From Acidobacteriaceae bacterium (GTDB lineage Bacteria > Acidobacteriota > Terriglobia > Terriglobales > Acidobacteriaceae), in NCBI GenBank assembly GCA_003151335.1, contig PLXE01000108.1, positions 1 through 64,000 of the forward strand: DNA of 64,000 bases, given 5' to 3'. Of this stretch, positions 12,872 through 62,175 are shown piece by piece. Numbering within the stretch: the first letter of the stretch is position 1; each line of letters starts with the position of its first letter. The position numbers and the translations under genes are program-made. Below the pieces are notes generated by a model that did no database searches, was not told where the DNA came from, and saw nothing but the letters and a program-made list of their open reading frames with translations.

Positions 12872-12892
12872 GCTAGCCACTAACCACTAGCC
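12872..12892. repeat. Short heptamer array next to the M20 peptidase stop
   Basis: Three 7-bp units (GCTAGCC, ACTAACC, ACTAGCC) lie six bases from the stop codon of the peptidase gene. They belong to the heptamer family listed at 50314-50425. Confidence 0.55.
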
Positions 12893-12898
12893 CCTGTT

Positions 12899-20522: not shown

Positions 20523-20557
20523 GCTGATTGCTGACGGCTGATGGCTGACCGCTGATG
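20523..20557. repeat. Heptamer array upstream of recN
   Basis: Five GCTGANN units (GCTGATT, GCTGACG, GCTGATG, GCTGACC, GCTGATG) run in tandem about 45 bases before the recN start codon. This is a variant of the heptamer family at 50314-50425. Confidence 0.65.
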
Positions 20558-20603: not shown

Positions 20604-22328
20604 GTGCTATTGGAACTGCGGGTCGAAAACTACGCGGTCATTGATAACGTGGCCGTGGAGTTCGCGCCCGGCCTGAATCTGCTGACCGGCGAAACCGGCG
20701 CCGGAAAATCCATCCTCATTGACGCTCTGGCTTTGCTTCTCGGCGACAAAGCTTCCACCGACACCATTCGTCACGGCACCGACAAGGCCTTGGTTTCGGC
20801 GGTCTTCGAGGCCGAGTCCAAAGCCCTGGATGCGGTCCTGGAAGCCAATGGCCTGGATTCCAATTCCGGTTCCGATTCCCATTCCGACGACGGCCAACTG
20901 ATTCTTCGCCGCGAGATCGCAACCGGCGGCAAGGGTCGCGTCTTCGTGAATAACCAGCCGGCGACGGTGACTGTCCTGAAGCAACTGGCGCCCCATCTGG
21001 CGGTGATTCATGCGCAGAATGAGGCGGTGCTGGCGTTCGATGCGGCATCGCGCCTGGCGCTTCTGGATGCATTCGCTGGCGTGGACACATCGGCGGCCGC
21101 GGCGGCGTTCGAAAGTTGGAACCAGGTGCGGCATCGCATTGCCGACCTGGAGCGCGATGAGCATGACCGGCTGCGCCTGCTGGACTTGTGGAGCTTTCAG
21201 CGCAAAGAGATCGCCAACGCGCGTGTGCAGCCGGAAGAAGACACCAGGCTCGAGGCCGAGAAGCGCGTGCTGGCCAACTCCGAGAAGGTGTTCACGGCAG
21301 CGATGGCGGCCTACGAAGCGCTCTATGAAAGCAATACTTCAGCGGCAGCTTCGATTCGCGTGGCGACGCGGCAAGTCGAAGAGTTGTCGCGCTTCGATGA
21401 GAAGTTCCGGCAATCCCTGCCCGAGCTGGAGTCGGCGCGCATCACCCTGGAAGACATCGGTCAGGCGCTCCGCGATTACGCCGAAGGCATCGAGGCGTCG
21501 CCCGCGCGTCTCGCCGAGGTTGAAGACCGGCTGGCCCTGCTCGATCGTTTGAAGCGCAAATACGGGCCGATCCTTGACGACGTGATCGCGCTCGGCGACG
21601 AACTGGAACGCAAGCTCAACGAGATGGAGAACAAGGACGAAGTCCTGGGCGCTCTGAAGATCGAGCTGACAAATGCCGCGGCGAAATATCTGGAGGCGGC
21701 GCGCGGTCTTTCCCGCCATCGCTACGAAGCGGCGCGCAAGCTGGAGAAAATGGTGGAGAGCGAGATCAACGAGCTGGCCATGAAGGCGCGCTTCAAGGTC
21801 GAAGTTAGCGGCTCAGACGAGGAAGGGAACTGGAGCGCCAAGGGCTTCGACCAGGTGCAGTACCTCATTTCCGCCAATCCCGGAGAGCCGCTGGGCCCGG
21901 TCGAGGAAATTGCGTCGGGCGGTGAACTATCGCGCGTGATGCTGGCGCTGAAGACCTGCGTTGAGGCGGGCAGCGCCAGCCGTGGCCGTCACAATGGCGC
22001 GCGCGGAGGCCCGGCACAGCGGACGTTGGTGTTCGATGAGATTGACAGCGGCATTGGCGGTCGCGCCGCCGAAGCGGTGGGCAGGAAGCTGAAGCAGCTC
22101 GCACGGACCAAGCAGGTGCTGTGCGTCACTCACCTGCCGCAGATCGCGTCGTTTGCCGACCAGCATTACCTCATCGAGAAGCGTGAATCCGGAGGTAGGA
22201 CCAAGACCTCGGTGCGGCCGTTGAATCCCGAGGAACGCACCCGCGAGATCGCGCGCATGATGAGCGGCGCCAAACTGACCGATACCTCGCTGAAGCACGC
22301 CGAGCAGATGTTGAAGGCAAATCAGTAG
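20604..22328 (+). CDS. recN: DNA repair protein RecN
   Basis: SMC-like ATPase that acts early in double-strand-break repair, 574 residues. Walker A is TGETGAGKSIL (28-38), a central Glu/Arg-rich coiled coil follows, and the C-terminal half has the signature EIASGGELSRVMLALK and Walker B TLVFDEIDSGIGG. Start GTG at 20604. A short Asn/Ser/Asp-rich low-complexity insert at about residues 85-98 is unusual. The last codons and stop (CAGTAG) lie inside a heptamer array, so the C-terminus is partly repeat-encoded. Confidence 0.96.
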   Translation: MLLELRVENYAVIDNVAVEFAPGLNLLTGETGAGKSILIDALALLLGDKASTDTIRHGTDKALVSAVFEAESKALDAVLEANGLDSNSGSDSHSDDGQLILRREIATGGKGRVFVNNQPATVTVLKQLAPHLAVIHAQNEAVLAFDAASRLALLDAFAGVDTSAAAAAFESWNQVRHRIADLERDEHDRLRLLDLWSFQRKEIANARVQPEEDTRLEAEKRVLANSEKVFTAAMAAYEALYESNTSAAASIRVATRQVEELSRFDEKFRQSLPELESARITLEDIGQALRDYAEGIEASPARLAEVEDRLALLDRLKRKYGPILDDVIALGDELERKLNEMENKDEVLGALKIELTNAAAKYLEAARGLSRHRYEAARKLEKMVESEINELAMKARFKVEVSGSDEEGNWSAKGFDQVQYLISANPGEPLGPVEEIASGGELSRVMLALKTCVEAGSASRGRHNGARGGPAQRTLVFDEIDSGIGGRAAEAVGRKLKQLARTKQVLCVTHLPQIASFADQHYLIEKRESGGRTKTSVRPLNPEERTREIARMMSGAKLTDTSLKHAEQMLKANQ

Positions 22329-22363
22329 TCAGTAGCCAGCTGCCAGTTGTCAGTTGTCAGTAA
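22322..22363. repeat. Heptamer array at the recN stop codon
   Basis: Six units (TCAGTAG twice, CCAGCTG, CCAGTTG, TCAGTTG, TCAGTAA). The first unit contains the recN stop. In this orientation the unit is the reverse complement of the CTGACAA type found before start codons. Confidence 0.75.
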
Positions 22364-22378
22364 CCAAAGGTTCTCCTA

Positions 22379-25620: not shown

Positions 25621-27564
25621 ATGGAAGGTCCTACCGATCGTGCCGAAGTACGCTTCGGCAAAATCGATGACATCAAGAGCCGGGTGGCGGCCGCCATCGA
25701 TGCCTCGCGGCGATATCTGTTCTCCATCCAGGACCGCGAAGAGGGCCACTGGTGTGGCGAGTTGGGCGCCGACACCACCCTGGTTTCCGATTACATCCTG
25801 CTGCATCGCCTGCTGGGCACCGAAGATCCGGTGCGGACAAAGAAGTGCGCCACCGAGATCCTGAATCGCCAGAATCCCGACGGCGGCTGGCCAATTTACA
25901 ACGATGGCCCATCCAACATCAGCGCCTGCGTTAAGGCCTATTTCGCGCTGAAAATGGCGGGCTACAGTGCCGATCATCCGCAGCTCAGCAAGGCCCGCGA
26001 GCGCATTCTCGCCTTGGGCGGCGTCACTGCGGTCAATACCTTTACCAAGATTTATCTGTGCTTCCTGGGGCAATACGATTACGACGCGGTGCCGGCAATT
26101 CCGCCCGAGATCGTGCTGTTTCCCAAGTGGTTCTGGTTCAACATCTACGAAATTTCGTCCTGGTCGCGCGCCATTCTGGTGCCGCTCTCCATCGCCTATG
26201 CCAAGAAGCCGTTCAAGAAAATTCCCCCGGAACAGGGGATTGACGAGCTCTTTGTGGGTGGGCGTACCCGGACGCAGCTACGCTTGCACTGGGCGGACAA
26301 GCTGGTGAGCTGGCGCAATTTCTTTCTGGTGCTCGATCGCATTGTCCACCTGCTAGAGCAGATTCATGTTCGTCCGCTGCGTACGCGCGCCTTGAAGGTC
26401 GCCGAGAAGTGGATGTTGGAGCGCATGGAGATGAGCGATGGCCTGGGCGCAATCTATCCCGGCATCATGAACTCCATCATCGCTCTGCGCTGCCTGGGTT
26501 ACTCGCTGGACGATCCGCAATTCATCCGCGCGATGGACGAGTTCGAGAAACTCGGCATCGAGGAAGAGGCCACGTTTCGCATGCAACCCTGCATGTCGCC
26601 GATATGGGACACCGCCTATGCCGTGTTTGCCCTGGCGGAAAGCGGCGTGGCGGCCGACGATCCTCGACTGGTGCGGCCCTGCGAGTGGATGCTGCGCAAG
26701 CAAGTCACTCGCAAAGGCGACTGGTGCGTGAAGAACCGCAAGGCAGCGCCGGCGGGCTGGTACTTCGAGTTCAACAACGAGTTCTATCCCGACGTGGACG
26801 ACAGCGCCCAGGTCATGCTGGCCCTCAGCCGGGTGAAGACCAGCAACGAGAGCTATCACACCAAGTCGGCGCAGCGCGCACTGGACTGGATATTGTCGAT
26901 GCAGTGCAAGAACGGCGGCTGGGCGTCGTTCGACAAGAACAACACCCGCATGGTCTTCCAGAACATTCCCTTCGCCGACCACAACGCCATGCTTGATCCG
27001 CCCACGGTCGATATCACCGGCCGCGTCCTGGAATGTCTGGCGAGCTATGGCTATTCGTTGAAGGACCAACCGGTGCGGCGGGCGGTCGAGTTCATCAAGC
27101 GCGAGCAGGCGGTTGACGGCTCCTGGTTCGGACGCTGGGGCGTGAACTATATCTACGGGACCATGCAGGTGCTGCGCGGGCTGGAAGCGGTCGGCGTGGA
27201 TTATCACGAGACTTTCGTGCTGCAGGCCGTGGAGTGGCTGCGCATGATGCAGAATCCCGATGGCGGATGGGGCGAGACTTGCGATTCCTACGACGATGCC
27301 AACACCAAGGGAGTTGGTCCAAGCACGCCTTCGCAAACAGCGTGGGCGGTGATGGGATTGCTCGCCGCCAATGACACGCGCAACGATTCGCTGCAGCACG
27401 GTATCGCCTATCTGCTGAAGACGCAGCGCCGCGACGGTTCCTGGGATGAGTCGCTCTACACCGGCACGGGATTTCCGCGAGTGTTTTACCTGATGTACTA
27501 CATGTACCGGCAGTATTTCCCGCTGCTGGCGCTGACCACATACGCCAAGGTCAGTAGCCAGTAG
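25621..27564 (+). CDS. shc: Squalene-hopene cyclase
   Basis: Membrane-associated class II terpene cyclase that folds squalene into hopene/hopanol. The 647 residues show the catalytic DVDD (391-394) and repeated QW motifs such as QNPDGGW (84-90), QCKNGGW, QNPDGGWGE and QRRDGSW. The ATG at 25621 gives a normal N-terminus; an in-frame start at 25585 would overlap ispH. The last residues (VSSQ) and the stop are encoded by a heptamer array. It sits 7 nt behind ispH and is followed, after a toxin-antitoxin remnant and repeats, by hpnA. Confidence 0.97.
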   Translation: MEGPTDRAEVRFGKIDDIKSRVAAAIDASRRYLFSIQDREEGHWCGELGADTTLVSDYILLHRLLGTEDPVRTKKCATEILNRQNPDGGWPIYNDGPSNISACVKAYFALKMAGYSADHPQLSKARERILALGGVTAVNTFTKIYLCFLGQYDYDAVPAIPPEIVLFPKWFWFNIYEISSWSRAILVPLSIAYAKKPFKKIPPEQGIDELFVGGRTRTQLRLHWADKLVSWRNFFLVLDRIVHLLEQIHVRPLRTRALKVAEKWMLERMEMSDGLGAIYPGIMNSIIALRCLGYSLDDPQFIRAMDEFEKLGIEEEATFRMQPCMSPIWDTAYAVFALAESGVAADDPRLVRPCEWMLRKQVTRKGDWCVKNRKAAPAGWYFEFNNEFYPDVDDSAQVMLALSRVKTSNESYHTKSAQRALDWILSMQCKNGGWASFDKNNTRMVFQNIPFADHNAMLDPPTVDITGRVLECLASYGYSLKDQPVRRAVEFIKREQAVDGSWFGRWGVNYIYGTMQVLRGLEAVGVDYHETFVLQAVEWLRMMQNPDGGWGETCDSYDDANTKGVGPSTPSQTAWAVMGLLAANDTRNDSLQHGIAYLLKTQRRDGSWDESLYTGTGFPRVFYLMYYMYRQYFPLLALTTYAKVSSQ

Positions 27565-27577
27565 TCGGTAGGCAGCA
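27550..27577. repeat. Heptamer array covering the shc stop codon
   Basis: Four units (GTCAGTA, GCCAGTA, GTCGGTA, GGCAGCA). They code the final residues of the cyclase and continue past its TAG. Orientation is the reverse complement of the array at 28155-28189, so the two bracket the intergenic region as inverted copies. Confidence 0.7.
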
Positions 27578-27937: not shown

Positions 27938-27990
27938 GCGGCTTCCTCAATGTGGCACGACGCGAGCGCCGTAGGCGCGAAAGACCTTAG
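27934..27990 (+). pseudogene. Possible truncated VapC toxin start
   Basis: The ATG overlapping the antitoxin stop opens MSGFLN, close to the usual MSGFLLDTN start of PIN-domain toxins, then runs into a palindromic repeat and stops after 18 codons. The catalytic Asp and the rest of the PIN domain are absent. Only five codons support the identity. Confidence 0.4.
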
Positions 27991-28148
27991 CCCAGCGCTT
28001 CAGCGCTGGGTATGCGGCATCCAGAATCGGAGTGCCGTAGGCACGGCAGAGACGGCGATTGTGCCGTCCCTACGGGACTCATATTCAAATACAACGCCAA
28101 CCCAGCGCTGAAGCGCTGGGCCAAGCTCTTTTGTCCCCCAAGCGGGAC
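27966..28148. repeat. Array of palindromic repeats between vapB and hpnA
   Basis: Six palindromes: GCGCC-GTA-GGCGC (27966-27978), CCCAGCGCT-TC-AGCGCTGGG (27991-28010), GTGCC-GTA-GGCAC (28032-28044), GTCCC-TAC-GGGAC (28066-28078), CCCAGCGCT-GA-AGCGCTGGG (28101-28120) and GTCCC-N6-GGGAC (28133-28148). Similar units are at 56039-56250 and 62000-62079. Confidence 0.75.
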
Positions 28149-28154
28149 TCTTTA

Positions 28155-28189
28155 CTGACAACTGACAACTGCCTACTGCCTACTGAAAC
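28155..28189. repeat. Heptamer array abutting the hpnA start codon
   Basis: Five units (CTGACAA twice, CTGCCTA twice, CTGAAAC). The last base of the array directly precedes the ATG at 28190, so the usual ribosome-binding position is occupied by repeat sequence and there is no purine-rich site. Confidence 0.8.
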
Positions 28190-29179
28190 ATGAAATGTTT
28201 CCTCACAGGCGCGACCGGATTTCTGGGAAGCCACGTTGCCCGTCAACTGCTTTCCCGAGGCGCCCAGTTGCGGCTGCTGGTGCGTCCTACCAGCCGTCTC
28301 GACAACATCGCCGACCTGCCGGCGGAGCGCGTGGTAGGCGATCTGCGCGATCCGCAGTCGCTCAGGACCGGCATGTCGGGTTGCGAGTTTGTCTTCCATG
28401 TAGCCGCCGACTACCGGCTTTGGTCGCGCAACGGTCAAGAGCTTTACGACTCCAACGTTGAGGGCACCCGCAACGTCCTGGCGGCGGCGAGAGATTCAGG
28501 CGTGCGGCGGGTTATTTATACCAGCAGCGTTGCCACCATGGGGTTCGGCAACAACGGCCGCCTTACCGACGAGAAAACGCCGGTCACGCTATCCAACATG
28601 ATTGGCGATTACAAGCGCAGCAAATTCATGGCGGAACAGTTGGCGATCGAGGCGGCACGCAGCGGGCAAAACGTGGTGGTGGTGAATCCGACGACTCCGA
28701 TCGGCGAGCGCGACATCAAGCCGACGCCCACGGGCCGGATCGTGGTTGACTTCCTCCGCCGTAAGTTCCCGGCCTATGTGGAAACGGGGCTGAATTTGGT
28801 AGACGTCGCCGATTGCGCTCAAGGACACTTGTTGGCCATGGAAAAAGCGGTGCCGGGTGAGCGCTACATTCTTGGCGGTGAGAACCTCACGTTGAAGCAG
28901 ATCCTGGATAAATTGGCGGCGATCACGGGTCTGCCTTCGCCGAAGATTAAGTTGCCTTACGCAGTGGCGTACGCGACGGGCGTGGTGGACACGCTGGTCA
29001 GCGGTACGATAATGAGGCGTGAGCCGCGGGTCACCTTGGACTCGGTACGCATGGGACGCAAGAAGATGTTTATCACCAGCGCCAAGGCCGAGCGCGAACT
29101 GGGCTGGAACCCGGGGCCGGTCGATGGCGCTTTGCGCCGCGCGGTGGAGTGGTTCCAGGCAAACGGCTATGCCCCGTAA
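28190..29179 (+). CDS. hpnA: Hopanoid-associated sugar epimerase HpnA
   Basis: An extended short-chain dehydrogenase/epimerase found with hopanoid genes; its reaction is not established. The 329 residues have the nucleotide-binding GATGFLGSHVA (7-17), the catalytic Tyr and Lys in YKRSK, and the family sequence NPTTPIGERDIKPTPTG. A heptamer array abuts the ATG and no Shine-Dalgarno is visible. The stop overlaps the next gene by 11 nt, so hpnA and the nucleosidase are coupled. Confidence 0.93.
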   Translation: MKCFLTGATGFLGSHVARQLLSRGAQLRLLVRPTSRLDNIADLPAERVVGDLRDPQSLRTGMSGCEFVFHVAADYRLWSRNGQELYDSNVEGTRNVLAAARDSGVRRVIYTSSVATMGFGNNGRLTDEKTPVTLSNMIGDYKRSKFMAEQLAIEAARSGQNVVVVNPTTPIGERDIKPTPTGRIVVDFLRRKFPAYVETGLNLVDVADCAQGHLLAMEKAVPGERYILGGENLTLKQILDKLAAITGLPSPKIKLPYAVAYATGVVDTLVSGTIMRREPRVTLDSVRMGRKKMFITSAKAERELGWNPGPVDGALRRAVEWFQANGYAP

Positions 29180-29864
29180 GCCCATCGCTGTTGTGGTGGC
29201 GATGCGGGTGGAACTGGCGCCGCTTCTTGCCAGGATAAAGATGCAGCCGCTGCACGTGGACGGTGTTGAGCTGTTCGAGCTGCCGGAGGCGATGGTCGCG
29301 GTTGGCGGTATCGGACAAAAACACGCCCATCACGCCGCCGAAGTGGTGATCGAGCACGCCCAGCCGAAGCTGCTGGTTTCGGCGGGCATGGCGGGTGCAA
29401 TCTCGCCGCAGCTAAAGGTGGGCGACGTTGGCCGGATTCGCGAGCTAGTGGATGTCGCTACCGGCGACCGCTACCCGACGCGTGGCGGCGAATGGGTGCT
29501 GGCGAGCTCGCCAGACGTAAGTGATGTCGCACAGAAACAGGCCTGGCTGACGAAATACCGAGCCGACGTGGTGGATATGGAAGGCGCGGCGGTAGCCCAG
29601 GTGGCGAAGGAGCGAAGGCTGGAGTTCGCTGCCGTGAAGGCCATTTCCGATGACTCCGGATTTGCGATGCCGCCCCTGACGCGATTTATTGACGGCAACG
29701 GAAGGTTCGAGACGCGGCAGTTCCTGGTCTATGTAGCGCTTCATCCGAAGTGGTGGGCCACGCTGGGAAAGATGAGGAAAAACAGCAAGATTGCTTCTGC
29801 GAACCTGTGCCGGGAGTTGCAACATCTAATTGAAGACAGCAGCCAGTGGTCAACTGGCAACTGA
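29169..29864 (+). CDS. hpnG: Nucleosidase of the MTA/SAH type, HpnG-like
   Basis: The 231-residue protein is a purine-nucleoside phosphorylase-fold enzyme. The N-terminal AMRVELAPLL carries the acid Glu, VGGIGQKHAHHAAEVV and VSAGMAGAISPQLKVGDV form the ligand pocket, VDMEGAAVAQVA binds the ribose, and AISDDSG has the catalytic Asp. In hopanoid clusters such a protein (HpnG) removes adenine from adenosylhopane to give ribosylhopane. HpnH, which makes adenosylhopane, is not in the window. It overlaps hpnA by 11 nt. The C-terminal SSQWSTGN is encoded by heptamer-type repeats and may be repeat-derived. Confidence 0.85.
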   Translation: MPRKPIAVVVAMRVELAPLLARIKMQPLHVDGVELFELPEAMVAVGGIGQKHAHHAAEVVIEHAQPKLLVSAGMAGAISPQLKVGDVGRIRELVDVATGDRYPTRGGEWVLASSPDVSDVAQKQAWLTKYRADVVDMEGAAVAQVAKERRLEFAAVKAISDDSGFAMPPLTRFIDGNGRFETRQFLVYVALHPKWWATLGKMRKNSKIASANLCRELQHLIEDSSQWSTGN

Positions 29865-29879
29865 GAGCTATTGGAACTG

Positions 29880-29950
29880 CTCCGCCCTAGCCAAAATCAG
29901 GCTAGAACGCGGCACCCGGCAACTGGCAACTGGCAACTGATTTCTGACAT
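29880..29950. repeat. Inverted-copy element and heptamer array upstream of the first dehydrogenase
   Basis: From about 29880 to 29917 the sequence is the reverse complement of 32174-32214, including a CTAGCC/GGCTAG hairpin, with a few mismatches. It continues into five heptamers (CCGGCAA, CTGGCAA twice, CTGATTT, CTGACAT) at 29916-29950 that run into the ATG at 29949. Confidence 0.75.
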
Positions 29951-31067
29951 GTCGAGCGCGACCCAACTCGGTAGTTCCGTCGGCCACCAGGCCCTCCCCG
30001 CGACTATGCAGGCGGCGGTTTATCGCGGCGTGAACGATGTCCGGCTGGAGACTGTCCCGGTACCGAAGATCGGCCCAGGAGAAATCCTGGTTCGGGTCCA
30101 CACCTGCGGCATCTGCGGCACCGATCTCAAGAAGATCGCAACCGGTTCCCATTCCGCTCCGCGCATCTTTGGCCATGAAACGACCGGGGTGGTTGCTGCG
30201 CTCGGCGAGGATGTTGCTGGCTACGAGCTAGGCGATCGCGTGATGGTGTTTCACCACATCCCCTGCGGCGAATGCTTCTACTGCCGGCACAAGGTGTTCG
30301 CCCAATGTCCGACGTACAAGAAAGTCGGCGCCACTGCGGGCTATGAGCCCAGCGGAGGCGGTTTTGCCGAATATGTTCGGGTGATGGAGTGGATCGTTCG
30401 CAAGGGGGTCATTCGTATTCCGGATGGCGTTTCTTTCGAGCAGGCTGCTTTCATCGAGCCCATCAACACCTGCATGAAGGGTATTGAAACGCTGAGACTT
30501 ACGCCGGGGGAATCGGTGCTGGTGATCGGCCAGGGCCCGATTGGCATCATCCTGGCGGTGCTGGCGCGCCGTTGCGGGGCGCGGGTAATGACTTCCGATT
30601 TGTTTCCGCAGAGGCATACAATAGCTCAGACATTCGGCCTGAACGAAAACATCGACGCGTCCACCTCCGAAACCGTAAGAGCCGTTAAAGAACTGACCGA
30701 GGGCCGGGGGGCGGATGCAGTCATACTTGCCGTAGCCGGCAACGCTCTAATTCGTACAGCCATGGACGCCACGCGTCCTGGCGGACGGGTATTGCTGTTT
30801 GCGCAAACCCAGCACGGTGAGGCAACCATCGATCCGGCGGCGGTTTGCGTCGATGAAAAGAGTCTCTTGGGGTCGTACAGCGCTTCTGTGGACTTGCAGG
30901 AAGAGTCCGCGCGGTTTGTGCTCAGCGGCGAAATGGAATTAGAGCGGCTCATCAGTCACCGCTTTCCGCTGGCCGGGTCGGTTGAAGCGCTGCATTTGGC
31001 TGCCCATCCCAAACCGGACTCCATGAAGGTGGTCATTCAGCCGGGCAGCATATGGAAGGACCAATAA
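29949..31067 (+). CDS. Zinc-dependent alcohol dehydrogenase (MDR family), first of pair
   Basis: Medium-chain dehydrogenase of 372 residues, sorbitol/threonine-dehydrogenase type. Catalytic zinc ligands are in CGICGTDL and GHETTGVV, with a structural cysteine group in PCGECFYCRHKVFAQC. The NAD(P) fold has VLVIGQGPIGIILAVLA. ATG at 29949 lies at the end of a heptamer array; ATG at 30006 (MQAAVYRG) is the more typical N-terminus and may be correct. The next gene, a paralogue, begins immediately after its stop. The pair lies between the HpnG-like gene and hpnC, so a role in hopanoid side-chain reduction is plausible; the substrate is not known. Confidence 0.85.
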   Translation: MSSATQLGSSVGHQALPATMQAAVYRGVNDVRLETVPVPKIGPGEILVRVHTCGICGTDLKKIATGSHSAPRIFGHETTGVVAALGEDVAGYELGDRVMVFHHIPCGECFYCRHKVFAQCPTYKKVGATAGYEPSGGGFAEYVRVMEWIVRKGVIRIPDGVSFEQAAFIEPINTCMKGIETLRLTPGESVLVIGQGPIGIILAVLARRCGARVMTSDLFPQRHTIAQTFGLNENIDASTSETVRAVKELTEGRGADAVILAVAGNALIRTAMDATRPGGRVLLFAQTQHGEATIDPAAVCVDEKSLLGSYSASVDLQEESARFVLSGEMELERLISHRFPLAGSVEALHLAAHPKPDSMKVVIQPGSIWKDQ

Positions 31068-32121: not shown

Positions 32122-32214
32122 TTGTCAGTTGCCGGTTGTCAGTTGTCAGCCGCATCGGAGCAAATAAGACGGCTGGGTGCCCCGTTCTAGCCTTCTTTTG
32201 GCTAGGGCAGGACA
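32122..32214. repeat. Heptamer array and repeat element downstream of the dehydrogenase pair
   Basis: Four heptamers (TTGTCAG, TTGCCGG, TTGTCAG twice; 32122-32149) are followed by GGGTGCCCCGTTCTAGCC-TTCTTTT-GGCTAGGGC (about 32174-32214). The second part matches the reverse complement of 29880-29917, apart from four or so bases. The CTAGCC/GGCTAG hairpin may also end transcription. Confidence 0.75.
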
Positions 32215-41475: not shown

Positions 41476-41847
41476 ATGAAGAACATCTACGTGGGGAATT
41501 TAACTTTCGACGCGACTGAAGACCAGGTGCGCGGGTTGTTCGAAGCCTATGGCCCAGTCGACAAGGTCAGCATTGTTACGGACCGCGATACCGGGCAACC
41601 GCGCGGCTTCGCCTTCGTCGAAATGGCCGACGACGAGTCCGCCGGCAAGGCGATGGAAGCCCTGAACGGCACCAATCTCGGAGGCCGCAATTTGACCGTG
41701 AACGAAGCGCGTCCCAAGACCGATCGTCCGCGGGGCGGTGGCGGAGGCCGTGGCGGCTTTGGCGGCGGCGGCGGACGCGGCGGCGGTGGTGGTGGCCGTG
41801 GGCGCTCGGGCGGCGGCGGCGGTGGCGGCGGCGGCTGGGGACGCTAG
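41476..41847 (+). CDS. RNA-binding protein with RRM domain and glycine-rich tail
   Basis: The 123-residue protein has one RRM: RNP2 is IYVGNL (4-9) and RNP1 is RGFAFVEM (43-50). From residue 86 to the end it is almost entirely Gly and Arg (an RGG-like tail), as in the glycine-rich RNA-binding proteins of cyanobacteria and plants. It likely binds mRNA and may be cold- or stress-responsive, fitting its place beside the cold-shock gene; the two have separate terminators. GAGGAT lies five bases before the ATG. Confidence 0.94.
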   Translation: MKNIYVGNLTFDATEDQVRGLFEAYGPVDKVSIVTDRDTGQPRGFAFVEMADDESAGKAMEALNGTNLGGRNLTVNEARPKTDRPRGGGGGRGGFGGGGGRGGGGGGRGRSGGGGGGGGGWGR

Positions 41848-43068: not shown

Positions 43069-44433
43069 CTACGGTTTCTTGTGTGTCGCCGGATGGTGCA
43101 CGGGCGCCGCGGGAGTGAGTGGGTTACCGTTCTTGTCCAGCAGTACGCCATCGGTCATGGTTATCAGGAATGGATTGGGGATATAGCTTGAGACCGTACC
43201 TTGGAACGCCATCATCGCAGCAGCTTGCGGTATCAGGCGCGCCGGGATTGCCTTGTCCATACTCAAACTGATGTCGGCCTTCTTGGCTTGGATGTCGTCG
43301 TCGCTGCCGGCAAGCTGCACACTGTTCGCAGTCGCGCTGATGACGGCGGCCTGCAACTTCACGGTTTTGCCCTTGATCGCGGTCCACACCGTGTCAGCGG
43401 CCTGCTGATTACCGGAAGAAAGCACCAGCTCCCATTCGGCAAAGCTCATCTGCTTCGGGTCTTTGCTCTTCACCAGGTCGGCCGCCTGCTCGGCGGGAGA
43501 CGGTGGCGGCGGCGCTGCGGCCACGGTAAAGCCGGCCGGTGGCAGGATACTCTGCGACGATTGCGCTTGCGTTACCAGGGCACTCCAGCCATCTTCGGAG
43601 CCGTGATAACGAATGTACTTCTTCCGGCCGTAGTCCAGGATCTGTGCCTGGCTGGTTCCCTGGGCCAGTTGCGAAGCCTTGACGATGAACCAGAAGCCTT
43701 CCGGGTTCATCGGATTGGCCTCCAGGTCGGCCGTGGCCAAGGGGTAGATGTCCATGATGTTCGGTTGCGACTCTTTCCCTACCGCGTCCCGCAGGTCCTT
43801 CTGCGCGGCGGCCAGGTCCTTCTGCTGCAATGCAGCAAAGCCCACCGCGCCTTCGAAGATGGCGCCGGTCTCGTTGCGGAGCTTGGTGAAATCAGCATCG
43901 CTCATGCCGTCGGGTTTGGGCATATTGGTCAGTGCCTGCAACCCCTTCTGGCCATATTGCTGCGCCTGCTGCAGATTTTGCTGCATCTGCGGCCCGCCTT
44001 GCGAGCCCGCGGCGCGGTAGTTGTAAGCCAGCAGCGCCAGCGCCCGGATGTTATTGGGGTTGACTTGCAGCAGTCGGTTGGCGGCCTCTATGGTCTTCTT
44101 GGCGTCGTTGGCCTGCTGGTAGGCCACCATCAACTGCTCCAAAGCGTCTTCCTTCATCACGCTATTGGGATACGTCTGCAGAAACGCTTCCAGTCCTTGC
44201 GGTTTAAACTGTGGGTTGGTCTGCTGCGCCGCGTTCACGTAGGAGTTATATTCAGCCGGATCTTTGATTTCTTTCTTCTGTGTCGGTTGAGCTGGCTGAC
44301 CGGCTTGCGCGGGCTGCGTCGGTTGAGCTGGCTGACCGGCTTGCGCGGGCTGCGCCGCTCCCTGAGCTGCCGATTGCTGGACCAGCGCTGCGGTAGCGAG
44401 CACCAGCAACATGGTGACTATCGACTTTTTCAT
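43069..44433 (-). CDS. Exported TPR-like protein with Gln/Pro-rich repeat
   Basis: A 454-residue secreted protein with a signal peptide (KKSIVTMLLVLATAALVQQSAA), then a low-complexity PAQAGQPAQPTQ repeat, then a helical region with a TPR-like pattern (EDALEQLMVAYQQANDAKKTIEAANRLLQVNPNNIRALALLAYNY). A Pro-rich hinge (AAPPPPSPAEQ) leads to a C-terminal beta-rich domain ending in His/Pro/Lys. No catalytic motif is seen. The ATG at 44433 has AAGGAG eight bases upstream; a well-formed promoter lies about 170 bp upstream and a terminator follows. Confidence 0.82.
   Translation of the reverse strand: MKKSIVTMLLVLATAALVQQSAAQGAAQPAQAGQPAQPTQPAQAGQPAQPTQKKEIKDPAEYNSYVNAAQQTNPQFKPQGLEAFLQTYPNSVMKEDALEQLMVAYQQANDAKKTIEAANRLLQVNPNNIRALALLAYNYRAAGSQGGPQMQQNLQQAQQYGQKGLQALTNMPKPDGMSDADFTKLRNETGAIFEGAVGFAALQQKDLAAAQKDLRDAVGKESQPNIMDIYPLATADLEANPMNPEGFWFIVKASQLAQGTSQAQILDYGRKKYIRYHGSEDGWSALVTQAQSSQSILPPAGFTVAAAPPPPSPAEQAADLVKSKDPKQMSFAEWELVLSSGNQQAADTVWTAIKGKTVKLQAAVISATANSVQLAGSDDDIQAKKADISLSMDKAIPARLIPQAAAMMAFQGTVSSYIPNPFLITMTDGVLLDKNGNPLTPAAPVHHPATHKKP
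44282..44353. repeat. 36-bp tandem duplication inside the TPR-like gene
   Basis: Two identical 36-bp units (44282-44317 and 44318-44353) encode two copies of a 12-residue Gln/Pro/Ala-rich unit directly after the signal peptide. Confidence 0.85.
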
Positions 44434-48657: not shown

Positions 48658-49392
48658 CTATTCGGTACCCCCTGCGGGACCCGCTGCGCTTTGCGCAATC
48701 TCTGGCTTGCCCGCAGCCCCGCCTTGCACCGCGGGCCTCCGCTGGCGCTTGCGCTGGGCCAGCTTCTTGCGGTTGTAGTCGTTGATGACCCGCGCCACGT
48801 AAGCATGGGTCTCGTGGTACGGCGGCACGCCTTTGTACTGCTGCACGCGCTGCGGACCGGCATTGTACGCAGCCAGCGCTTTGATCATATCGTTGTTGTA
48901 AAGCAGCAGCAGTTCGCGCAGGTAACGCACTCCACCATCGACATTCTCCGCCGGGTCGAAGCTGTTCTTCACCCCCAGCTTGCTGGCCGTGCCCGGCATG
49001 AGTTGCATCAGTCCCTGCGCGCCTTTGCGCGAAATGGCGCGCGGATTGTTGCCGCTCTCGGCCCGGATGACGCTGGCAATGAAGTCGGCGTCCACTTGGC
49101 TGCGCGTGCTGGCCTCGCTGACGATGGTGCTCAAGTCCACCGGCGTCTGCCGCCGCGACGTGATCGCCTGCGGCTCGGGTGGCGCCGGCTCAAAGTTCTC
49201 GATCTGGGCGCTGGGCACGTCGACGTATCCACTGCGCGGTTCCGCGCTCATGTACAGGCGCGTGGTGTCGCCGACCACCTCATGACGCTCGTGGCGAATG
49301 CTGAAACCGTTGCGCAAGTTGGCAATTTCGGCGGCGTACGTCTGCGACGCCATCAGCAAGCCCAGCAAGCCGAGTTGTAAGAATTTACGCAT
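48658..49392 (-). CDS. Lytic transglycosylase (SLT domain)
   Basis: Peptidoglycan-cleaving enzyme, 244 residues with a signal peptide (RKFLQLGLLGLLMASQTYA). The SLT fold is clear: the catalytic Glu in VIRAESGNNPRA, the GLMQLMPGTASKLG stretch, and AYNAGPQRV near the end. It acts in the periplasm on the glycan strands, releasing anhydromuropeptides. The start overlaps the stop of the HAD phosphatase by 8 nt, so the two are coupled. A Lys/Arg-rich segment (RKKLAQRKRQRR) follows the catalytic domain. Confidence 0.95.
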   Translation of the reverse strand: MRKFLQLGLLGLLMASQTYAAEIANLRNGFSIRHERHEVVGDTTRLYMSAEPRSGYVDVPSAQIENFEPAPPEPQAITSRRQTPVDLSTIVSEASTRSQVDADFIASVIRAESGNNPRAISRKGAQGLMQLMPGTASKLGVKNSFDPAENVDGGVRYLRELLLLYNNDMIKALAAYNAGPQRVQQYKGVPPYHETHAYVARVINDYNRKKLAQRKRQRRPAVQGGAAGKPEIAQSAAGPAGGTE

Positions 49393-50245
49393 TCACGCTC
49401 GCGGTATTGGCGTCGAGCACCTCTTCGATGGCCGCCGCCACCCCGCTTTGGTCGTTATGCAGGGTGATGGTCCAGCCGTTCTGCTTCAGCTCGTCCGATG
49501 CATTTCCCATGATGACCGGATGGCCGGAGAAGGTCAACATCGCAATGTCATTGTAATTGTCGCCGATGGCCATCACCTCGGAGCGATCGAGGCCGCGATA
49601 GTTGGCCCACCTCTCCAGCGCGTGTCCCTTCGAGCAACCCGCGTTGAGGATGTCGACGATGCACAAGTTGCGCACATCATATTGCGTGCGCAGCATGGTG
49701 AAATCCCGGGCGAAATCGCAGGACAGCAGCGCTTGCTGCGCCTGCTGCATCAGTTCGATCGGGCCGCAGAACATGGCCTGAATGGGGTCTTCCGTCAGGG
49801 CTTTTGCAATTGGGCTGACATATTCGATGTAGGGCGCATTCTTCTCCATCCAGCGCTGGATGACGTTGTACAGACGCTCGTGATTTTCGCACACAATCGC
49901 CCCCATCCCTTCACGGTCGAAGGTGAGCACCATGTGATTGCGATACTCCGCCATGTGCTGGCAGAGCTTGATGGCCGTTTCCCTGGGCAACAGGTCCTGG
50001 TGGAACAGTTCTCCGCGCGTGGACCGCGTCACCGCCCCATTCGAACTCATCAGCCACAGGTCGAAGCCGAGCGACTCCGCCATGGGCAAGGCAAACCTGT
50101 GCCTGCGTCCCGTAACCAGCACGATTTCAATGCCGGCTTCATGGGCCCGCCGCAAAGCCCTCAGATTAGCTTCAGGGACCTGGACATTGGAGTCCAGCAG
50201 GGTGCCATCCAGGTCGATGGCGATGAGGCGTATGGAGCGTGGCAC
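49385..50245 (-). CDS. HAD-IIB (Cof-type) phosphatase
   Basis: A haloacid-dehalogenase hydrolase of 286 residues. The four motifs are visible: DLDGTLLD (about 11-18), VLVTGRR, the Lys of KGHALERW, and GDNYNDIAML. The cap is of the C2B type, as in sugar-phosphatases. It probably dephosphorylates small sugar phosphates. The start is GTG at 50245. The gene overlaps the transglycosylase and is read away from the GalT-like gene. Confidence 0.93.
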   Translation of the reverse strand: MPRSIRLIAIDLDGTLLDSNVQVPEANLRALRRAHEAGIEIVLVTGRRHRFALPMAESLGFDLWLMSSNGAVTRSTRGELFHQDLLPRETAIKLCQHMAEYRNHMVLTFDREGMGAIVCENHERLYNVIQRWMEKNAPYIEYVSPIAKALTEDPIQAMFCGPIELMQQAQQALLSCDFARDFTMLRTQYDVRNLCIVDILNAGCSKGHALERWANYRGLDRSEVMAIGDNYNDIAMLTFSGHPVIMGNASDELKQNGWTITLHNDQSGVAAAIEEVLDANTASVNA

Positions 50246-50313
50246 GATGTCTCAATTCTAGCAGGGAGATAGCAGCCGGCAGGTGCCGAATGCGAACTGG
50301 CGGGCGCTGAATG

Positions 50314-50425
50314 CTGACAACTGACGACTGACGACTGGCTACTGACGACTGACGACTGACGACTGACGACTGACGACTGACGACTGACGACTGACTACTG
50401 GCTACTGGCTACTGGCTACTGATTG
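50314..50425. repeat. 16-unit heptamer array upstream of the GalT-like gene
   Basis: Sixteen exact 7-bp steps fill 112 bp: CTGACAA, CTGACGA twice, CTGGCTA, CTGACGA seven times, CTGACTA, CTGGCTA three times, CTGATTG. The array ends 18 bases before the ATG at 50444. Related shorter arrays occur at 12872, 20523, 22322, 27550, 28155, 29841, 29916, 32122, 55928 and 60166. Confidence 0.95.
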
Positions 50426-50443: not shown

Positions 50444-51433
50444 ATGGAATTGCGCAAGGACCCCATTACGCGCTCCTGGGTCATTTGTGGCGACGAGCCC
50501 GAAGCGGCCGCTTCGCCTGACTCCTTCTGCCCCTTCTGCCCCGAGTCCGGCCTGCCGCTGCAGGTGGTCGCTACCGCGCCGACCGTGAATGGCACTCCCT
50601 GGTCGGCGCGCGCCGTGGTCCATCCTCATCCGCTGTACGGCATCGATGGCGAGCCGTCGCGCACGGGCAACGGTTTATATGACAAGATGCGCCCGGTTGG
50701 CGCCCACGAAGTGATTGTCGAAAATGCCCGCCACGACCGGCATTTGTGGATCGCCGACGACCGCGAAATCGAGGAATACCTGGCGCTCTGCGGCCAACGT
50801 ATCCAGGACCTGAAGGGCGATGTCCGCTTCAAATACGTCAGCGTCTTCAAGAATTTCGGCGCCCAGTCGGGGCAGGAGTTTGACCATCCCACCTCGGAGG
50901 TTGTGGCCACCACGTTTGTCCCGCGGCGCGTTCTGTACGAGTTGCGGGCGGCGCGGCAGCATTACCAGGTGAAGGAGCGCTGCGTCTTTTGCGACATTCT
51001 GCGGCAGGAGCAGGAACAGAAGCTGCGCGTCATCGAGGTCCGCGGCGACTACATCGCCTGCTGTCCTTATGCGCCGCGCGTGCCCTACGAGACCTGGGTC
51101 GCTCCTCACACCCACGAAGCCCACTTCGAGCGCATGGCGCCGAAGTCCGGCGCCATGCGCGACCTGGCGGCCCTGCTGCGGCGCACCCTTTACCGCATTC
51201 GCACCATCGCCGATGGCTTCCACATGGTGCTGCATACCTCGCCCAACACCATGCACCGCTCGGAGACGCTCGGATTCTGGAAGACCATTGAGGACGACTA
51301 CCACTGGCACATCGAGATCTTGCCCATCCTCGCCGCCAAGGCAAAGTCCTACACCTTCAAAGAGGTGTATTACTCGCCCGTGAGCTCGGAGACGGCGGCG
51401 GCCATCCTGCGCGAGCGGCCGACCGAGCGGTAG
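50444..51433 (+). CDS. Galactose-1-phosphate uridylyltransferase-like protein lacking the nucleophilic His
   Basis: HIT-superfamily protein of 329 residues with the GalT two-domain layout. The N-terminal zinc site seems intact (C29, C32 and H148), and the second domain keeps HWHIEILP. In GalT enzymes the active-site motif is HPH-x-Q, where the second His is the covalent nucleophile; here it reads H148-P-T150-S-E152, so both the nucleophile and the Gln are replaced. A second Cys pair (C180, C183) is present. It probably is not an ordinary GalT. Its ATG is 18 bases behind a heptamer array and has no strong ribosome site. Confidence 0.8.
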   Translation: MELRKDPITRSWVICGDEPEAAASPDSFCPFCPESGLPLQVVATAPTVNGTPWSARAVVHPHPLYGIDGEPSRTGNGLYDKMRPVGAHEVIVENARHDRHLWIADDREIEEYLALCGQRIQDLKGDVRFKYVSVFKNFGAQSGQEFDHPTSEVVATTFVPRRVLYELRAARQHYQVKERCVFCDILRQEQEQKLRVIEVRGDYIACCPYAPRVPYETWVAPHTHEAHFERMAPKSGAMRDLAALLRRTLYRIRTIADGFHMVLHTSPNTMHRSETLGFWKTIEDDYHWHIEILPILAAKAKSYTFKEVYYSPVSSETAAAILRERPTER

Positions 51434-55927: not shown

Positions 55928-55962
55928 CAGTTGTCGGTAGCCGGTAGCCAGTGGTCGGTAGT
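55928..55962. repeat. Heptamer array after hemC
   Basis: Five units (CAGTTGT, CGGTAGC twice, CAGTGGT, CGGTAGT) start five bases after the hemC stop, in the reverse-complement orientation typical of arrays behind stop codons. Confidence 0.75.
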
Positions 55963-56038
55963 CAGGCCGCATCAAAGCGGTTCTCGTGTCATCCTGATTG
56001 ACGCATGGGCCTGCTGAGCGTTCGTGAGAACGAACCGC

Positions 56039-56228
56039 GGTATTTGCCAGTGGACTGTGCTGGCGGAAGATCCAGCGCCGTAGGCGCGACATAGTTTAGC
56101 CCAGCACGCAGCCGCAGGCGGAGTGCTGGGTGTGGTATTTGCCAGTGGACTGTGCTGGCGGAAGATCCAGCGCCGTAGGCGCGACATAGTTTCGCCCAGC
56201 ACGCAGCCGCAGGCGGAGTGCTGGGTAA
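56039..56228. repeat. Tandem duplication of a 95-bp palindrome-bearing unit
   Basis: Units 56039-56133 and 56134-56228 are identical but for one base inside (TTTAGCCC or TTTCGCCC) and the last two. Each contains a GCGCCGTAGGCGC palindrome and a CCCAGCAC/GTGCTGGG stem. A GTCCC-GTA-GGGAC palindrome follows at about 56249. Confidence 0.9.
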
Positions 56229-60160: not shown

Positions 60161-60165
60161 TTAAA

Positions 60166-60186
60166 CTATCCACTATCCACTAACTC
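60166..60186. repeat. Heptamer array at the nth stop
   Basis: Three units (CTATCCA twice, CTAACTC) run up to and over the stop codon of the minus-strand nth gene. Confidence 0.55.
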
Positions 60187-61066
60187 ACGGCTTTGCCGCC
60201 TTGTGAATCTCCACCGTACTCCAGGTCTTGTCGGCGGCGTGGCAGAGGTCCTCCAGCGGGCAATCGGCGCACTTGGGTTTGCGGGCGATGCACAGCGCGC
60301 GCCCGTGCAGGATGATCTGGTGCGCGAAAATAATCCACTTGTCGCGCGGGACCACCTTCATCAGGTCCCGCTCGATCTTTTGCGGGTCTTCGTGTTTGGT
60401 CAGCTCCAGGCGGCGCGAGATGCGCTGCACATGCGTGTCCACCACCACGCCGTCGGCGATCTTGTACCACGTGCCCAGCACGACGTTGGCGGTCTTGCGG
60501 GCCACGCCGGGCAGTTGCAGAAGCTCGTCCATGGTGCGCGGCACCTGGCCGCCGAATTCGCTGATCAGCTTGCGCGCGGCGCCGACCAGCGACTTCGACT
60601 TGTTGCGGAAAAATCCGGTGGAGCGAATGTCGGGTTCGAGCTCTTCCGGCTGGAGCGTGGCAAACGCCTCGGGCGTCGGGTATTTCTCGAAAAGGACAGG
60701 CGCGACCATGTTGACGCGTACGTCGGTGCATTGCGCCGAAAGTATGGTCGCCACCAGCAGCTCCCACGCGCTGTTGTGCTGCAGAGCGCAGGTCGCGTCG
60801 GGATAGCGCTGGTCGAGCCGCCTCAGGATCTCGTTGACGCGCTCCGGCGCCAGCGGATTGTAGCGCTTAACTGTGATGGCCCTAGTCTTAGGAGCAGGCT
60901 TCTTCGGCGCAGCTATTCTTGCGGCAATCGGTGCAGCAACCTTAGCTACTCTTTTGCGGACGGGCACGACTCTGTTGGCCTTGACCTTGGTCCGCAGTGG
61001 TTTGCTCGAAACTTTGTCCTGACGTCCTGAACGTGAAGGCTGGCGAGGAGTGAGGCCGCGTGGCAT
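60185..61066 (-). CDS. nth: Endonuclease III with basic N-terminal extension
   Basis: Base-excision-repair DNA glycosylase/AP lyase for oxidised pyrimidines, 293 residues compared with about 210 in E. coli. The helix-hairpin-helix LPGVARKTANVVL carries the catalytic Lys, VDTHVQRISRRL the Asp, and the C-terminal CIARKPKCADCPLEDLC holds the 4Fe-4S cysteines. The first 65 or so residues are an added Lys/Arg/Pro/Ala-rich tail, similar in composition to that of the LigD-type protein. The ATG at 61066 has AGGAG upstream. Confidence 0.96.
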   Translation of the reverse strand: MPRGLTPRQPSRSGRQDKVSSKPLRTKVKANRVVPVRKRVAKVAAPIAARIAAPKKPAPKTRAITVKRYNPLAPERVNEILRRLDQRYPDATCALQHNSAWELLVATILSAQCTDVRVNMVAPVLFEKYPTPEAFATLQPEELEPDIRSTGFFRNKSKSLVGAARKLISEFGGQVPRTMDELLQLPGVARKTANVVLGTWYKIADGVVVDTHVQRISRRLELTKHEDPQKIERDLMKVVPRDKWIIFAHQIILHGRALCIARKPKCADCPLEDLCHAADKTWSTVEIHKAAKP

Positions 61067-61999: not shown

Positions 62000-62079
62000 G
62001 TCCCTGAAGGGACTCGTAATCTTTTGGCAGTTTACCCAGGGCTTACGCCCTGGGCTAGTATTATTTCGCCCCTGCGGGG
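62000..62079. repeat. Three palindromes between hemQ and the DedA gene
   Basis: GTCCCT-GA-AGGGAC (62000-62013), CCCAGGGC-TTAC-GCCCTGGG (62035-62054) and CCCC-TGC-GGGG (62069-62079), of the same types as at 27966-28148. Confidence 0.75.
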
Positions 62080-62175
62080 CTGGGATGGTATCACCGCACG
62101 CTGCGCCGATCGCAATGAGTTCACACGCACTCTGAATGCCTGCTTCACAAAAGACTGGAGTTATTCCTACACAAC

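Follow-up and report, generated by a model that had tools for sequence, protein, structure and literature searches.

Tandem heptanucleotide arrays with a shared inward polarity at gene edges in a genus of Acidobacteriota

Among the heptanucleotide repeats of bacteria is the P6b stem of the Nostoc trnL intron, for which Costa et al. 2002 are reportedly cited. Extracts of two reports on this stem (PMC3488679, PMC4476775) describe it as built of heptanucleotide repeats: both hairpin arms consist of 7-nt repeats, the length changes by whole units, and the repeat class can be replaced while the stem is kept. Similar properties were seen in some of the arrays described below, which occupy many intergenic regions in contrast to one stem in one intron. 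TAACTGA direct repeats are known in Beggiatoaceae, Cyanobacteria and Bacteroidetes (MacGregor 2015, PMC4679880). As the extracts of that paper present them, they resemble the present arrays in the ACTG core (TAACTGA is a rotation of ACTGATA), in the intergenic location, in the pointing of most sets to a start codon and of few to a stop codon, and in length changes by unit steps between strains. They are, however, one exact heptamer located mostly at starts, whereas here the last three positions of the unit vary, stops dominate, other heptamer families share the same lean, and inverted pairs occur.

GGGNATC heptamer repeats have been reported in Xanthomonas and Nostoc PCC 7120 (Rehm et al. 2015, PMC4692102). 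According to the extracts of that paper, these repeats are intergenic, lie within 50 bp of coding ends, show strand polarity and stop-codon overlap, form inverted pairs in Xanthomonas, and keep their sites while the units vary, all of which is shared with the arrays here. They differ as G-quadruplex formers that prefer four units; the ACTG units carry no G run, and the commonest length among all period-7 tracts here is five units. REP/BIME elements, in the extracts of PMC3733652, are likewise intergenic inverted repeats near or overlapping coding ends that sometimes supply the stop codon, but they are tagged palindromes of 20-40 bp, many of them linked to Y1 transposases, whereas the present arrays are tandem heptads and occur in a genome (G300) in which no Y1 transposase was detected.

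The kind of array described here is already known, with published counterparts in the extracted parts of PMC4679880, PMC4692102 and PMC4476775. An earlier note on this DNA had likened the arrays to the STRRs of cyanobacteria, and the likeness was upheld by an intergenic excess, a polarity at gene edges and unit variation at kept sites. The same note was aware of no functional counterpart in this group; the extracts on TAACTGA (PMC4679880) and GGGNATC (PMC4692102) document heptamer counterparts beyond the filamentous cyanobacteria. In the open-licence literature on heptamers in Acidobacteria, no description of such arrays was found, nor was a description found there of multiple heptamer families with one polarity, inverted pairing and unit turnover within one genus of Acidobacteriota.

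The window, which is the whole stretch of 64,000 nucleotides analysed, belongs to a 4.65 Mb genome of Acidobacteriota (G000). The array that drew attention lies between two divergent genes:

49385..50245, minus strand: Cof-type HAD-IIB hydrolase gene, divergent, upstream
50307..50422, plus strand: focal array, CTGAATG followed by 16 CTG cores; units CTGACAA, CTGACGA, CTGGCTA and CTGACTA; faces the start codon at 50444
50444..51433, plus strand: galactose-1-phosphate uridylyltransferase-like (GalT-like) gene, downstream; match below curated cut-offs

The claim of a 16-unit array at 50314-50425 was confirmed, since inspection of the sequence found 16 CTG cores spaced by exactly 7 bp at 50314-50421, and TRF reported a repeat of period 7 at 50314-50422 (15.6 copies, 92% matches, score 148). 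The array was also said to end 18 bases before the start codon. It does adjoin the start, but the gap from the last core to the ATG at 50444 is 22 nt, and the value of 18 includes the 16th, degenerate unit CTGATTG. The remark that seven is not a multiple of three is correct. Orthologues of the GalT-like gene were found in the relatives G300, G298 and G301 with identities of 94, 94 and 91%, respectively, and the intergenic DNA 5' of galT carried four different unit sets in the four species. Inverted pairs were readable 5' of galT in the three relatives, with half-split scores of 23, 15 and 11, for which the split point cuts through the arm in G300. The focal array itself had no clear inverted partner (own-half pairing score of 8 in G000).

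Ten further arrays had been listed in the window, and all of them were present at the positions given:

12872..12896, plus strand: ACTARCC-type short array, read by eye; faces a minus-strand gene at its 3' end, 12899
20523..20555, plus strand: GCTGATG-type heptad tract; faces the called start 20604, 48 nt away
22322..22366, minus strand: ACTG array; overlaps and faces the stop of a gene ending at 22328; tract also in G298 and G300
27550..27575, minus strand: ACTG array; overlaps and faces the stop of a squalene-hopene cyclase gene ending at 27564
28153..28186, plus strand: ACTG array; ends 3 nt 5' of the ATG at 28190; ACTG-type sequence at the corresponding place in G298, G300 and G301
29851..29869, plus strand: degenerate ACTG array; exception in polarity, with its back side at the stop 29864
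29911..29949, plus strand: ACTG array; the start was called at 30006, but an ATG kept in the relatives at about 29949 would touch the array
32122..32149, minus strand: ACTG array; 4 nt past the stop 32117; retained in G298 and G300 but missing from G301
55928..55965, minus strand: ACTG array; 4 nt past the stop (55923) of a porphobilinogen deaminase gene; kept in G300 and G301 with different units
60165..60182, plus strand: ACTATCC array, also in G300; a minus-strand gene (60185-61066) has its 3' end 2 nt away

Those at 12872, 27550, 29841 and 60166 are short or degenerate; the first three were missing from the TRF list, and the one at 12872 was also missing from the arrays found with the ACTG profile. 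Almost all had been described as touching or nearly touching a start or stop codon, and most do adjoin a gene end, the array at 20523 being 48 nt from its called start. The window also contains other features. An Rfam scan of the window gave three matches, all to Acido-Lenti-1 (RF01687), none of them on an array; they are intergenic (27965-28010, minus; 28101-28149, plus; 62035-62081, plus), and two of the three lie upstream of the array at 28153. Two tandem 95-bp copies, 98% alike, follow the array at 55928 (56039-56226); the orthologous regions in G300 and G301 are shorter and lack them. The tandem repeats at 41729-41835 (48 bp) and 44278-44354 (36 bp) bear no relation to the heptamers.

The arrays were then surveyed in a first set of 1.243 Mb (26.7% of G000) and an extended set of 1.563 Mb (33.6%). 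The contigs were mostly picked for carrying a listed array, and the densities are thus not an unbiased genome average. Gene ends were taken from a simple codon-model caller, which misses some short genes and leaves start codons uncertain. A sequence-blind period scan of the extended set detected 98 period-7 tracts in 905 intergenic regions of at least 40 bp. Periods 14 and 21 yielded 66 and 37 tracts, and none of the remaining periods between 4 and 24 exceeded 7. Coding sequence contained only 5 period-7 tracts. The presumption of a genome-wide family instead of a rare local feature was thereby borne out. With the ACTG-family profile at a score of at least 20, 83 arrays were found in 1.243 Mb; the same search gave 4 in sequence resampled with a Markov-3 model and 19 in the sequence reversed. 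A four-core pattern matched 129 times in the whole G000 genome and 3 times when read backwards. For ACTGACT and ACTGACC units this control lacks independence, since both match the reversed pattern, and the high control values in G051, G291 and G243 are therefore not chance levels.

Of all 4-mers, ACTG recurred most often at 7-bp spacing in the genome sample, with a count of 104 where the median 4-mer reached 1. The 164 ACTG units counted included 40 ACTGACA, 35 ACTGGCT, 22 ACTGGCA, 20 ACTGACT and 12 ACTGACG, but only 3 ACTGATA, the rotation of TAACTGA; an exact heptamer with rare one-base variants, as in the TAACTGA repeats, was thus not what was found. A GGG run appeared in one listed unit only (ACTGGGA), while a separate AGGGGCT family exists in the genome. 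The lack of a G run in the ACTG units indicated that the polarity described below needs no quadruplex. Further heptamer families in G000 were GCTGACA, ACTATCC/ACTAGCC, CCCTAGC, GCTAATT, ACTTGAA and GCGAAGA. For the following analyses, an overlap of 20 nt into genes was allowed, giving 106 period-7 tracts, most commonly of 5 units (39 of 106). Single linkage by single substitutions joined 84 of the 106 into one superfamily, and the families were therefore not independent inventions. No pattern of use was seen when unit types along the arrays and flanking bases were tabulated.

The tracts were concentrated at gene ends. A comparison with random placement in the same intergenic regions, conducted on one third of the genome, located 65 of 106 tracts within 15 nt of a gene end versus 23.2 expected, and 76 within 30 nt versus 31.0 expected, which agreed with the proximity that had been proposed. 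Tracts lay within 30 nt of 51 of 859 gene 3' ends and of 25 of 951 starts. Polarity was examined with 81 ACTG arrays, two of the 83 being excluded as lying inside called genes. The 3' end of the ACTG strand faced a stop codon (-30 to 10 nt) in 34 of the 81, against 1.9 expected, and a start codon (-30 to 30 nt) in 14, against 4.8 expected. In the same bins, the back side lay at a stop in 5 cases and at a start in 3, where 2.1 and 5.1, respectively, were expected. Heptamer families other than ACTG lean inward in the same way. Over all families, 63 of the 80 tracts near gene ends had YAG on the gene-leaving strand and 14 had it on the opposite one, 12 of the tracts having both, and away from gene ends there was no polarity (10 out and 15 in, of 26 tracts). 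The earlier note had thus recognised the family and its placement at edges, but missed the polarity, the other families, the inverted pairs and the published counterparts outside cyanobacteria. Tracts occurred in 12 of 189 regions between divergent genes and in 72 of 716 elsewhere, which is no significant depletion (P 0.16). A depletion between divergent genes was accordingly dropped as a candidate; one arm test had given 0 of 112, yet heptad inverted repeats were present in 4 of 156.

The position and the ACTG core would suit binding sites for a heptamer-counting DNA- or RNA-binding regulator, as the extracts of PMC4679880 propose for TAACTGA with ribosomal protein S1, Csp or Csr as candidates. 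The predominance of ACTG at 7-bp spacing fits such a regulator, as do the arrays that adjoin start codons, some leaving no space for a Shine-Dalgarno motif. The transcript at stops, however, carries the complement of that at starts, so that one RNA-binding protein would not read both alike, and unit families are swapped at the same site between close species. We consider this explanation improbable. Rho rut sites follow a YC-step rule, and in ACTG units YC steps recur at intervals of 7 nt along the gene-leaving strand; this strand has no C-over-G excess, and rut sites were set aside.

A unit of 7 bp with a stop codon would produce stops in three frames and on both strands, and the arrays might serve as a frame-independent translation barrier at coding edges. 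Relative to column shuffles, the gene-facing strand indeed carried more stops per unit at 3' ends (0.69 versus 0.30) and at starts (0.59 versus 0.36), and so did the gene-leaving strand at 3' ends (0.53 versus 0.40, a value reached by 1.1% of the shuffles). The enrichment at starts is open to bias, since stop-free arrays 5' of starts could be absorbed into called genes. Moreover, 30 of 50 arrays at stops lacked sense-strand stops in all three frames, and significance was lost when each of the 5 families was counted once. The barrier was rejected as the main reading because the enrichment at tract level was not significant at family level, and it is retained only as a quite improbable rival.

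Some intergenic regions read as stop, array, insert, inverted array and next gene. The left and right halves of one region were therefore compared with halves of other regions by permutation. Heptad inverted repeats were detected in 22 own pairs versus 2, 4 and 1 in permuted ones (671 regions), and in 18 versus 2 in a smaller set, showing complementary heptad arms of the P6b type in a subset, the focal array not among them. With stricter end-to-end arms, 13 of 439 regions were positive versus 0.8 expected, with a lag-7 identity of the arms of 0.71, although not all 13 were heptads. A subset of the arrays is thus the two arms of an inverted pair. Heptad inverted repeats numbered 31 in total, one of which (C91:55924) is an ordinary palindrome; the tracts outnumber them, and the focal array is unpaired, which indicated that pairing is not general. 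G-U wobble on the sense strand gave 20 G-U versus 10 A-C in the smaller set but 24 versus 18 in the larger one (P 0.22), and RNA-level selection was consequently abandoned as unsupported.

Paired arms enclosing other sequence, including interspersed hairpin repeats, could also mark the ends of a mobile element as its terminal inverted repeats, or belong to REP-like elements that a Y1 transposase mobilises, and Y1_Tnp matches were present in 8 of 9 genomes of the genus. However, G300, which is 99% complete, has 86 matches to the array pattern and no Y1_Tnp match, and in the regions inspected the interiors differ between loci, several also between orthologues, while the arrays stay. This explanation appeared very improbable, and the Y1 transposase was discarded as the array maker on account of G300. 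Across the genus, Y1 transposase matches ranged from 0 (G300) to 13 (G302) and did not track the ACTG array counts. Among the enclosed or neighbouring sequences, the interval C21:11568-12176 of G000, between two inverted ACTATCC-type arms, apparently holds a gene missed by the caller. Interspersed hairpin-like repeats starting TTGTCATCCCGAGCG were seen in C36:44703-47680 and other intergenic regions of G000; after masking of the heptads, 158 of 734 intergenic regions joined one linked group of such repeats.

ACTG arrays were found in all 9 genomes searched in the genus. In a sample of the phylum, 45 of 297 genomes matched, unevenly distributed, and most genomes of the same family had no match. 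Orthologous regions were compared for 68 regions of G000 with G298, G300 and G301. A tract was shared by both species in 23 of these 124 comparisons and missing from both in 91; in 6 it was confined to G000 and in 4 to the relative (Fisher P about 1e-15, the comparisons not being independent). At the kept sites inspected, units and lengths differed between relatives. At C95:203185, where both arms were altered, G000 has TTCGC-type and GCGAA-type arms and G298 has TTAGC-type and GCTAA-type arms, a clear case of co-change. At C1:118235, where both arms have likewise changed, three species carry TTTCAAG or TTTCTAG units and G300 carries CAGTTGC and GCTGAAT, each of the four having arrays on either side; one arm is altered in G301 and the other is not, indicating that arms can change singly. 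Both arms at C91:133075 are longer in G298. When arms were swapped between species, the own combination was better than the swapped one in only 6 of 10 comparisons (6 regions), or 11 of 16 at a weaker threshold, which does not establish a general co-change of arms.

A rival view is that the arrays are a pure mutational by-product without function: 7-bp arrays and inverted copies would arise in non-coding DNA by slippage and template switching, and selection against gene damage would leave them adjacent to coding sequence. The free drift of unit sequences seen in the single-linkage superfamily agrees with it, as do the non-significant tests of sense-strand wobble and arm co-change, and the suggestion relayed in the extracts of PMC4692102 that heptamer length reflects the stretch of DNA gripped by DNA polymerase. 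Random placement, however, predicts neither the concentration within 15 nt of gene ends nor the orientation bias, and the sites persist across species despite the change of units. A by-product is a serious possibility, although a doubtful one.

The arrays were also sought in public genomes. A five-core ACTG pattern gave at least 117 stretches, of which the first 80 were analysed and then all 117 listed; the matches listed included Cyanobacteria, Acidobacteria, Chloroflexi, Bacteroidota, Planctomycetes, Omnitrophota, Deltaproteobacteria, Verrucomicrobia and Beggiatoa relatives. ORFs of at least 80 codons stood in for genes. In the first 80 loci listed, an ORF end touched the facing side only in 46 of 105 arrays and the back side only in 10. 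For all 117 loci listed, with 16 arrays near contig ends left out, the corresponding numbers were 69 and 11 of 147, with both sides touched in 35 and neither in 32; counted per locus, 57 leaned to the facing side and 6 to the back, with 38 ties. An inverted partner (score of at least 14, within 350 bp) was found behind 38 of 116 arrays and in front of 4 in the first 80 loci listed, but back flanks of other loci scored nearly alike (60 of 228), and locus-specific pairing could not be told from background in these loci. That ACTG arrays share their polarity across many phyla points to a common cause.

Period, position, polarity, inverted pairing in a subset and persistence with unit turnover were all computed from the genomes. 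The explanation that we tentatively prefer is that slippage in 7-bp steps rewrites the arms of hairpins at gene edges. The arrays would be 7-bp building blocks of gene-edge structures, and in a subset of cases two arrays would pair as the arms of a single long, imperfect hairpin spanning the intergenic space between two genes. Replication slippage in the 7-bp register would rewrite the number and sequence of units and homogenise them within an arm, and would thereby account for whole-unit changes, for uniformity within arms and for the drift from one family to another. Arm-to-arm copying may assist by template switching, which occurs at quasi-palindromes; it would account for the matching families in both arms and for two-arm replacements. 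What recurs is the period of 7, the position relative to coding sequence and the inward polarity, with the unit sequence left to drift. The polarity is the hardest of these to account for: slippage does not explain it, and either a maker that works in one direction or selection acting on gene edges would be required.

The hairpin may cap or insulate transcripts at gene edges. The preference for 3' ends, together with the pairing, suggests a role in ending or protecting transcripts. In Xanthomonas axonopodis, the extracts of PMC4692102 report more transcript starts or stops at heptamer repeats able to form quadruplexes than at controls, which is compatible with such a role at transcript ends, and roles at transcript edges have been hypothesised for REP elements (extracts of PMC3733652). 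The absent wobble signal and the weak co-change test count against it.

A single activity shared by many phyla, which would copy DNA in 7-nt steps at coding borders and build inward-pointing, often inverted arms of free sequence, with STRRs, TAACTGA, GGGNATC and trnL P6b as its local outcomes, seems unlikely on the present evidence; if true, one gene-edge hairpin process would set period, polarity and pairing across all four. The papers cited here treat heptamer repeats singly, whether as formers of quadruplexes, as sites for regulators or as fingerprints. In the present genus, several heptamers have period, edge position and polarity in common, and some sites are rewritten on both arms between close relatives. 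The question accordingly shifts from what the sequence binds to which process makes and keeps 7-bp arms at gene edges, and the kept sites with new units allow direct comparison of close species.
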